Origin: a virus
Strand: one strand, 5' to 3'
Length of the DNA stretch: 37,421 nt
IMG/VR virus record: IMGVR_UViG_3300047157_000113
Span: 1-37,421 of that record
In this document: piece by piece, positions 6,023 to 15,297 of the stretch
How positions within the stretch are numbered: position 1 is the first letter of the stretch
Layout: each line of letters starts with the position of its first letter
Made by a program: the position numbers and the translations under genes
The notes under the pieces: generated by a model
What the model saw: the letters and a program-made list of their open reading frames with translations, nothing else
What the model was told of the DNA's origin: nothing
The model's database searches: none

Positions 6023-6079
6023 GGGATTAATCCCCCTTGAGTAACAGGTTAGCCAGCCCCTGTTGGATGAAATGCTGGC
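6023..6079. promoter_or_regulatory. Palindrome and overlapping hairpins between HTH and ParB-like genes
   Basis: The 137-base gap 6014-6150 holds a perfect 12-base palindrome GGGATTAATCCC at 6023-6034. It also holds two overlapping hairpins, AACAGG/CCTGTT at 6043-6064 and GCCAGC/GCTGGC at 6052-6079, that cannot form at the same time. The palindrome could be an operator. The alternative hairpins could be an attenuator-like switch or a weak terminator, but no U-run follows. Confidence 0.4.
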
Positions 6080-6150
6080 CCTAATTCGCTACGGGATGTG
6101 GCAATGCCCAGCCGAAGGCTCTATCGGCAACGAAAGAAAGGTAATTACCT

Positions 6151-7893: not shown

Positions 7894-7957
7894 GGAGGGG
7901 GGCAAACTCCTAGACCCCTCCGTATCCAGTTGCCGGTCTGGGTTACCAAAACCGGCA
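7894..7957 (+). other. Two hairpins upstream of the replication initiator gene
   Basis: In the 96-base gap, GGAGGGG at 7894-7900 pairs with CCCCTCC at 7915-7921, and TGCCGGT at 7931-7937 pairs with ACCGGCA at 7951-7957, followed by CCCATTTT. The second resembles a weak intrinsic terminator or an attenuator. They would lie in the mRNA leader of the initiator gene, whose ATG is 25 bases further on, and may limit initiator expression. Confidence 0.45.
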
Positions 7958-7982
7958 CCCATTTTACTGAGGATAAATAACA

Positions 7983-8720
7983 ATGGCCGCATCATTAATA
8001 GGCTGGATATGGACGCAAGAGGTAAGTAGCACCGCCAAGCTTGTGCTGTTTGCGCTGAACGAACACACAAACATTGGCGAGCATGGGGATTGGAGAATTT
8101 TCCCTAGTCAGGAAAGGATTGCAAGGATGTGCGGAGTCAGTAGGCGCACCGTTGTCACGGCAATGAAAGAGCTAACCGATAAGCAGGTAATCACTGTGGC
8201 TCACCAGCACGATGATAACGGCAGACAGCTTCAAAATCTTTACTGGATTCAAGCTCCGAAATTACTGGATGGGGGTGTGCAAATTTTTCACACAGGGGGG
8301 TGCAATAATTTCATACACGGGGGTGAAAATTCTTCACACAAATCCCTTAATAAGAACCCCTTAATAAAAACCCCTTTAACAAATGACTTGTTTGCAATTT
8401 TCTGGGACAACTACCCACGGAAGACAAACAAGAAGCTAGCCCAGAGCGCATTCAAAACAGCAGTCAAAGATGAGGACACCCTCAACTCCATAATCACTAA
8501 CATCCAAGAGCGGATTGAAGGTGGTGATTGGGAGCTAAACAATAAAGGATTCATACCTCACCCATCTACTTACCTCAACGGTAGGCGCTGGGAGGATGAG
8601 GTTGTGCCACGCACTACACACAAACCTAACTCAACGGAGATAGCTCGACGCAATTCCCAAGCTGTGAGCGATGACTTCACCAAGGTATCGGAGGATTTCG
8701 CATGGATAGGAAAGAACTAG
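7983..8720 (+). CDS. Lambda O-like replication initiation protein
   Basis: A 245-residue protein with the two-domain plan of phage O-type initiators. Residues 1-85 form a winged-helix domain: STAKLVLFALNEHTN, then FPSQERIARMCGVSRRTVVTAMKEL as the recognition helices. A low-complexity linker at about 95-135 is rich in Gly, Asn, His and Lys. The C-terminal segment has FWDNYPRKTNKKLAQSAFK and FIPHPSTYLNGRRWEDE, typical of these proteins. The linker DNA carries three iterons and three A+T-rich repeats, so the gene likely contains its own origin as in lambdoid phages. The ATG at 7983 follows GAGGATAAATAAC. The next gene, loader-like, overlaps it by 19 bases. Confidence 0.85.
   Translation: MAASLIGWIWTQEVSSTAKLVLFALNEHTNIGEHGDWRIFPSQERIARMCGVSRRTVVTAMKELTDKQVITVAHQHDDNGRQLQNLYWIQAPKLLDGGVQIFHTGGCNNFIHGGENSSHKSLNKNPLIKTPLTNDLFAIFWDNYPRKTNKKLAQSAFKTAVKDEDTLNSIITNIQERIEGGDWELNNKGFIPHPSTYLNGRRWEDEVVPRTTHKPNSTEIARRNSQAVSDDFTKVSEDFAWIGKN
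8271..8340 (+). repeat. Three origin iterons inside the initiator gene
   Basis: Three adjacent repeats with a 24-base pitch lie at 8271-8294, 8295-8318 and 8319-8340. Each begins G5-6 TG and ends in TTTCA-ACA/TAC. Each has internal dyad symmetry, for example TGTG-AAA/TTTT-CACA in the first and GTGAA/TTCAC in the third. This is the expected form of binding sites for an O-type initiator. They encode the protein linker GGVQIFHTGGCNNFIHGG. Confidence 0.75.
8343..8384 (+). repeat. Three 14-bp A+T-rich tandem repeats (candidate DNA-unwinding element)
   Basis: Immediately after the iterons come three head-to-tail 14-base units (8343-8356, 8357-8370, 8371-8384) of the form CCCCTTAATAAAAA. They resemble the 13-mers of bacterial origins and the A+T-rich flank of the lambda origin. 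The arrangement iterons then A+T-rich repeats strongly suggests where strands open. Confidence 0.7.
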
Positions 8721-9172
8721 AGGACTGTATGCACGGGCTAGGCCAAGTGTACGGGTTCTATAGCAAGGAGTTTGATGACGTTCAGAGAGCCTTCTGGATG
8801 CAGGCAATACAGGGTGTAGACCCACAAGCTTTTCTAATTGCTGTACGCCAGTACACCAGAGAAGGCCGTTACGCACCCAAGCCCAAGGATGTGCTGGATA
8901 TTATGGAGCGTGATAAGCCCCGTACTGCTGACGCACTGACGATACCCGCAGAGCTAGGCAACGTGGCACCCAAGCACATATCAGATGCTTGGCGATATTG
9001 GCTACCCAAGTTTTGGGGCAAGGAAACTGGCGGTGTTATGGGTCAGCCAGAGGGATCAGTGAGCCATGAGAAGGCTGAGGAGATGCTGATCTTGATTAAC
9101 AAAGAGGCCAAGCGGGTTAACAATCCTGACGCAATCCCTTTTGACTACAAGCTGGTGGAGGTTTGGCAATGA
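8702..9172 (+). CDS. Replicative helicase loader-like protein (G39P/lambda P position)
   Basis: A 156-residue protein starting inside the initiator gene. Residues 20-70 (FDDVQRAFWMQAIQGVDPQA then AVRQYTREGRYAPKPKDVLDI) match the helical pattern of the phage helicase loader/inhibitor family represented by SPP1 G39P, in which two helices are followed by 'PxPxDI'. The C-terminal half is less conserved. Position straight after an O-like initiator is where lambda has P. It would deliver the host DnaB helicase to the origin, since no phage helicase is encoded. Domain assignment moderate, role inferred. Confidence 0.65.
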   Translation: MDRKELEDCMHGLGQVYGFYSKEFDDVQRAFWMQAIQGVDPQAFLIAVRQYTREGRYAPKPKDVLDIMERDKPRTADALTIPAELGNVAPKHISDAWRYWLPKFWGKETGGVMGQPEGSVSHEKAEEMLILINKEAKRVNNPDAIPFDYKLVEVWQ

Positions 9173-14000: not shown

Positions 14001-15297
14001 TTACGCATTTTAGAAAAGATGCCTGACAACTCTTCATTAAGAAGGCCGCGCGAACTAGCCTCGGCCTCCATCTCACTAATCTTCTGCAAGCTAGGATTCG
14101 GGTTGGTTCTTCTTTCGGTCGGTGGCACTGGAGCAATCGGTGGTGTTGGAGCAATGGTTTCTTCTGGCCTGTCGATGCTCGTTGGTACACGACGGGCGGT
14201 AACCTCTTGCTCTCTTAGTAATTCAGAGGGAACACGCTGTGCCGTTACCTGTTGCTCTCTTAGTAGCTGAGAGGGAACACGCTGTGCTGTCACTTGTTGC
14301 TCTGCTAGTAACTCAGGCGGGACACGACGGGCCTCTACGGACTGCTCCCTCAATAGTTCAGAAGGAACGCGACGGGCGTCAACTTGTTGCTCTCTCAGTA
14401 ACTGGGATGGAACCCGTTGCGCTGTTACCTCTTGCTCCCTAGCAACTCAGAAGGTACTCGACGGGCAGTAACCTGTTGCTCTCTTAGCAACTCAGACGGA
14501 ACCCGCTGTGCTGTTACCTCCTGCTCCCTTAGTAGCTCGGACGGAACTCGCTCGGTAGTAGGCATGTCAACACCAAGACCAGCCATCATGCCTTGGCGCT
14601 TACGCTCCCGTCCGTCTTCAAGCCCAAAGTTAGTACCTCTTAGGCTTGGCTGTGGTACTACGCGCATGTTCCTTTGAGGGGCTTCAACCCCCAAGCTGTC
14701 CATCTGCTCCTTCCACTCTGCATCCTGAACCGCATACGTTTTAGGAAGAGCCTCTATGACCTGCTCATATCCAACAGTCGCGGCGTTGGCTCCCTTTATG
14801 CCCATCTTTTCCATTACTTCTTCTGTGTAATGGGTCAAGCCACCTTCATCTTCAGGAAGGCCAGCCCACTCCTTTGCAAGCTTGGCAGAAAACTCTTTAC
14901 TGGACATATTCCCATTGAGGTATTCGTTAAGGCCGCGCCGCTCTGCCAGCCTAACCGCCATTCTGTCTTGCATCTCAGGATCAAACTTGTCATCCAAGTC
15001 CACATCCATCTTGCTCCATTTAACCAGCCACTCCATAGTGTCTTTAGTTATTTGGTATGCGCCAGATGCCTTATCTTCTTTTTTAAGAAGGTCATACACC
15101 TCGCCTACAGTCATGTCAGTAAGGCCCACGTCAGCCCTACTGCCATGCCGAACGTTGTACGGATCAGTATTAAGAATGCTTGTTAATAATCCATCTCCAT
15201 AACTTTCAGCATCTTTGATAAGCTGAAGCAACTCGGGAATATCACTAGGAGAAACAGTGTCCCTTTCTTTCTTTCTTTCAGCGGTTACGCTATCCAT
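11048..15297 (-). CDS. Internal virion protein with N-terminal muramidase (T7 gp16-like), frameshifted
   Basis: A protein of about 1,417 residues if one missing base is restored; as given it reads as 15297-14425 and 14353-11048. Residues 20-135 look like a lysozyme/transglycosylase fold: Glu31 in KDAESYGDG, the SGAYQIT motif at 78-84, and FDPEMQDRMAVRLAERRG. Then come eight copies of a 15-residue repeat, and about 1,000 largely helical residues with a Gly/Ala-rich stretch (ARFGGGVATGSAVSRAFGVG). The plan and place (last gene after tail tube and two other internal proteins) match T7 gp16, which is ejected into the cell envelope and cuts peptidoglycan. The break is at 14440/14441, where one T is missing relative to the other repeats. 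An ATG at 15380 overlapping the upstream stop could be the true start if another single base is missing near 15325. Confidence 0.8.
14189..14547 (-). repeat. Eight-copy 45-bp tandem repeat (VPSELLREQxVTAxR)
   Basis: Eight consecutive 15-residue units of the type VPSELLREQEVTAQR lie between the muramidase and the long C-terminal part. The copies differ at third codon positions and at a few residues (Glu/Gln, Gln/Arg, Thr/Asp/Glu), so the array is old and under protein selection. The array is 359 bases long, one short of 8 x 45, which pinpoints the missing base in the third copy. Confidence 0.92.

Follow-up and report, generated by a model that had tools for sequence, protein, structure and literature searches.

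The plan in which a replication origin lies inside the gene of its own initiator has been established experimentally for phage lambda (PMC7466680, PMC5043065), phage SPP1 (PMC6316719) and the plasmid pSK41 (PMC5703833). Lambda O binds its iterons as dimers (PMC7466680, PMC5043065). A flexible linker separates its DNA-binding and P-binding domains, and ori is located in mid-gene (PMC6022878, PMC7466680). In SPP1, the unwinding element lies within gene 38, with the loader gene immediately downstream (PMC6316719). The RepA_N plasmid pSK41 carries four Rep boxes centrally in rep; the ori-coding region is the linker, and the protein has a winged-helix domain (PMC5703833). The Rep protein of pPR9 combines a phage-type N domain, HTH_36 (pfam13730), with the pSK41 C domain (PMC5703833). 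Repeats have also been described within the O-like gene of Pseudomonas phage MD8, from which its authors infer lambda-like replication as a prediction only (PMC8508860).

The window analysed here is the whole of a linear virus record of 37,421 bp. For its first 24.9 kb, no close DNA relatives were found among known phages. It very probably contains an intragenic theta-type replication origin, located inside the initiator gene and working like lambda ori, SPP1 oriL or the pSK41 ori. The features of the locus are as follows.

7983..8720, plus strand: initiator gene, 245 aa, comprising winged helix, linker, C-terminal domain and tail (HTH_36 and phrog_270 matches)
8025..8183, plus strand: winged-helix DNA-binding domain, residues 15-67 (PF13730; AlphaFold2 mostly confident)
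8271..8357, plus strand: disordered linker codons, residues 97-125 (AlphaFold2 pLDDT < 50)
8273..8294, plus strand: iteron 1, GGGTGTGCAAATTTTTCACACA, dyad GTGTG-N9-CACAC, centre 8284
8296..8317, plus strand: iteron 2, GGGGGTGCAATAATTTCATACA, weakest dyad of the three, centre 8307
8319..8340, plus strand: iteron 3, GGGGGTGAAAATTCTTCACACA, dyad GTGAA-N5-TTCAC, centre 8330
8343..8384, plus strand: putative A+T-rich unwinding zone, three 14-bp units of the C4TTAATAAAAA type (TRF, 14 bp)
8343-8356, plus strand: 14-bp unit 1, TCCCTTAATAAGAA
8357-8370, plus strand: 14-bp unit 2, CCCCTTAATAAAAA
8371-8384, plus strand: 14-bp unit 3, CCCCTTTAACAAAT, a weaker copy
8394..8621, plus strand: conserved C-terminal domain (FWxxYP ... 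P.TYLNxxRWxDE), residues 138-213 (alignment, own HMM)
8616..8717, plus strand: C-terminal tail, residues 212-245, common to the otherwise different initiator of contig L230
8702..9172, plus strand: putative helicase-loader gene, overlapping the end of the initiator gene by 19 bp (phrog_2289, 1.4e-4)

The locus resembles lambda ori in gene O in that dyad iterons 20-24 bp apart lie within the initiator gene, an A+T tract follows on their 3' side, and a loader gene, putative here, comes next. It differs in having three iterons instead of four, in an A+T zone built of 14-bp repeats, in an initiator of phrog_270 (lambda O belongs to phrog_277), and in a next gene without a P-like match. The iteron sequences are unrelated, as the first-pass annotation had noted: the best 14-mer match to the lambda iterons was 5-8, with a shuffled mean of 7.2. 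The same annotation called the origin lambdoid. This holds for the plan, with iterons and then an A+T tract in the initiator gene, a possible loader next and NinB-like and NinG-like genes downstream, but not for the protein, in which no homology to lambda O was detected (BLASTP E 1.2; hhalign probability 1.6%) and only distant O-like PHROG hits were common to both. SPP1 oriL in gene 38 (gp38/gp39/gp40) likewise has direct repeats and an A+T element inside the initiator gene; in contrast to SPP1, a scan of window genes revealed none for a phage helicase. With pSK41 the locus shares an origin within linker codons and a winged-helix domain, and plasmid initiator structures are a weak fold match here. 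However, pSK41 is a plasmid, not a phage, and its C domain binds DnaG primase, whereas the C domain in the window is of another family. The likeness to the MD8 gene, known from the published description, consists of the intragenic repeats. The origin proposed here is a further intragenic phage origin of the established plan, in the phrog_270 family and not in the lambda O family.

The gene that carries the repeats had been taken for a replication initiator, and profile searches bear this out. Its product matches Pfam HTH_36 (PF13730, 1.1e-9) and phrog_270, replication initiation protein (3.6e-36, residues 5-217), and both the N and the C domain of the phrog_270 family (HTH_36 and FWxxYP...WLNxxRW) are present. 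No sequence relatives were found in the PDB. The top Foldseek matches in the PDB were weak (E about 3e-3 to 1e-2) and included the DnaD N domain (2v79) and the plasmid initiators 4pql/5kbj, one plasmid initiator among them being a complex with DNA. AlphaFold2 predicted a confident winged-helix half and a confident helical C-terminal half with disorder between them. The codons of the predicted disordered linker coincide with the iteron region and extend into the A+T zone, of which they cover the first part. The winged-helix domain is expected to read the iterons.

Both repeat arrays, three iterons and three 14-bp A+T units, are present within the initiator gene where the first-pass annotation had placed them. 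The three 22-bp iteron units start at 8273, 8296 and 8319, so that the spacing is 23 and 23 bp rather than the 24 bp given earlier. The internal dyads noted there are real: their centres fall in an identical register in 3/3 iterons (p=0.001 against column shuffles). The three-copy match score of the iterons, 52/66, is the highest of the whole window, and none of 3000 synonymous-codon shuffles that kept the protein matched it (shuffle maximum 48). For the 14-bp array, which follows the iterons almost without a gap, as had been stated, the score was 31/39, also the best in the window, and was likewise reached by 0/3000 synonymous shuffles (maximum 29). Codon-order shuffles attained neither the iteron nor the 14-bp array score (0/3000). 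A two-copy 16-mer test was weaker for the initiator gene, at 18/500; lambda O behaved similarly on it, at 8/500. Taken as a positive control through the repeat analysis applied to the relatives (below), lambda O showed a matching pattern, its iterons lying in several frames (0, 2, 2, 1).

Neither 23 nor 14 is divisible by 3, so successive copies fall in different reading frames, the iterons being read in frames 2, 1 and 0; the repetition is therefore in the DNA and not in the protein. Selection for the repeats acts at the DNA level. GG does occur three times in the linker, as it should if a repeated Gly-Gly-x peptide were selected at the protein level, but this explanation is hardly credible: it is contradicted by copies in three frames and by protein-preserving shuffles that never attain the score.

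An autoregulatory operator is another conceivable use of dyad sites within the gene of a winged-helix protein. The HTH protein would bind the dyads in its own gene and regulate transcription running into the genes downstream, with the origin located elsewhere. We consider this quite unlikely. The sites are in mid-gene rather than at a promoter, with no promoter call nearby, and even with up to 3 mismatches allowed the iteron motif has no second copy in the window, where 0/100 shuffles yielded three hits. Moreover, the adjoining A+T array and the pairing of iterons with A+T across the family suit an origin. The operator and origin roles could coexist. Outside the window, the exact iteron motif gave 53 single hits in viral contigs and 0 in relatives with the C domain. 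Single-strand folding of the repeat DNA was no better than that of shuffles (z 0.11), and the predicted intrinsic curvature, computed from wedge parameters, was ordinary against the genome and codon shuffles. We also observed G or C runs (~5-9) between the dyads in window 8271-8325 and in the relatives L039, L044, L047 and L052, which represent several unrelated iteron sets; among initiator relatives, CCCCC was counted 101 times against 38 expected from codon shuffles.

The A+T content of 8341-8384 is 70%. Position 8346 is the first of the gene's least stable 40-mer, which ranks at the 99.4th percentile across the window; less stable places exist elsewhere in the window. An intragenic origin is the best explanation of the locus because out-of-frame repeats beyond codon shuffles and dyads in one register occur together in a gene of an initiator family, with the least stable 40-mer on the 3' side of the iterons.

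We compared the locus with relatives of the initiator. The set, drawn from viral and genome contigs and from phage records, comprised 171 distinct sequences that have the C domain in common, that of the window among them, and all were analysed identically. No whole-length relative closer than about 35% identity was found. Linker repeats exceeded synonymous shuffles (p<=0.005) in 54/171 relatives and in only 2/200 other genes of the same loci. The period was 20-24 bp in 35 of these 54 linkers and near twice that in others. The repeat sequences vary between relatives, and several are clear dyads, for example CGCAAAATCTGCG; only 18/85 units were significant as dyads, which does not support their being universal in the family. 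An A+T peak lies 30-60 nt before the C domain (0.599 versus 0.547 in codon-shuffled sequences, s.e. of the difference 0.006). Relatives that keep the protein linker and lose the DNA repeats had been named beforehand as the outcome that would speak against an origin. It turned out that the opposite is true: linker DNA repeats are kept while both the peptide and the repeat sequence change.

These data also bear on whether the repeats lack a function and arose by slippage or by tandem duplication in a linker under little constraint. The linker is predicted to be disordered and tolerates change among relatives, as slippage would require. However, the copies have diverged and yet keep the dyad register, spacing is held to about 20-24 bp over many unrelated repeat sequences, the excess over control genes is large in the counts given above, and the A+T tract exceeds codon expectation. 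Slippage is thus very unlikely to account for the repeats. A separate idea, that iteron similarity tracks the N domain, was rejected. Where two relatives were alike in the N domain and unlike in the C domain, 18.4% of the pairs shared a linker 14-mer, against 0.9% for the converse, but a stricter repeat-unit test left 4/79 pairs. N-domain DNA is shared similarly to the linker 14-mers, so such tracking is inseparable from common descent.

In the A+T zone of the window, AACC occurs at 8355 and 8369, 14 bp apart. We surveyed this motif in 135 linkers from initiator relatives, less than 40% identical in peptide. Over the stretch 30-75 nt before the C domain, AACC was overrepresented in each of the three frames, exceeding 100/100 codon shuffles per frame; its reverse complement GGTT was rare in this zone. 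After removal of 22 sequences with AACC-type iterons or at least four AACC, the total was 59 against a shuffle mean of 39.2 and a maximum of 53 (200 shuffles), and the single-frame excess became less extreme. Pairs of AACC 11-15 bp apart were found in 33 sequences, some of which have AACC-type iterons, whereas 200 shuffles gave 11.9 on average and never more than 19; this is the greatest excess among tetramers in the zone. In two other zones of the gene, AACC was not among the leading tetramers, and lambda has no AACC repeat in the corresponding stretch. The motif was discovered by inspecting the same, mutually related sequences in which the excess was counted. We tentatively suggest that the 14-bp units belong to a family-wide, strand-specific AACC element that recurs at intervals of 11-15 bp directly 3' of the iterons and is kept even where the iterons differ completely. 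It could serve as a single-strand recognition element for the initiator or a loading factor after opening, a role comparable to that of DnaA-trios or plasmid 13-mers. In the open-access literature, we found no paper on the AACC repeat or on the origin described here. The strand-specific repeat, present at this spacing in relatives with different iterons, may be a new signal.

The downstream gene has its closest homologue (53%) in contig L230. Window segments 7906-7975 and 8628-8803 show ~78% DNA homology with this contig, in which a different initiator lies between them. The L230 initiator has three iterons of its own, of the CATGTGTCGGAATCGACAG type, with a dyad and a spacing of 22 and 23, and an A+T tract of 74% A+T. 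The two initiators have only their last 35 residues in common (63% identity over 35 aa). On the simplest reading of the alignment, initiator and origin were exchanged together and the tail was retained beside its loader. The tail possibly contacts the loader, or it could instead merely mark the crossover point. A published precedent for a chimera with an HTH_36 domain is pPR9 (PMC5703833). The first homologous segment (L230 2120-2195) is intergenic and precedes the initiator gene; it is 78% identical, has no Rfam match and is possibly a regulatory leader. Its positions 7931-7957 form an imperfect hairpin, for which the fold z is -3.1 in the window and -0.6 in L230. A second intergenic block, window 6046-6105 and L230 24-82, is 92% identical and lies upstream of a ParB-like gene; it has two predicted hairpins and no Rfam match.

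The product of the gene at 8702-9172 may be a helicase loader, as hinted by weak matches to phrog_2289 (helicase loader) of the window gene and its L230 homologue (1.4e-6). Its structure model was poor (pLDDT 44) and was discarded as uninformative. NinB-like, HNH and NinG-like genes follow downstream, and the gene order is reminiscent of lambda O-P-nin. GC skew, a check proposed in the first-pass annotation, tracks gene orientation and is hence confounded. Elsewhere in the window, 45-bp tandem units (7.8 copies, 14202-14552) span the 5' end of a minus-strand ORF of 1101 aa that has no PHROG match, and 1357-2355 codes for an anti-restriction protein of the ArdC type, which includes a zincin-like metallopeptidase domain.

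Taken across the family, an intragenic origin is favoured because iterons occur in the family's linkers, the A+T peak accompanies them, initiator and iterons are replaced jointly in L230, the repeats coincide with the linker, and the lambda control behaves alike. The winged-helix domain of the initiator would bind each dyad iteron as a dimer. Three initiator dimers, their sites separated by about two turns of the helix, would form a compact complex that helps to melt the adjoining 3' A+T zone of 14-bp units. The C-terminal domain and tail may then deliver the helicase via the product of the next gene.

On this reading, an otherwise little-characterised uncultured phage has a compact origin and initiator module that takes up about 110 bp of a 738-bp gene. 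Iterons encoded within the initiator's own gene are common in this large and diverse family. The comparison with L230 provides a natural swap of initiator and origin against a constant downstream gene and suggests an exchange of origin specificity in the form of a single module. The AACC repeat, if real, would provide a shared point of access to origin opening in phages whose iteron sequences have nothing in common.
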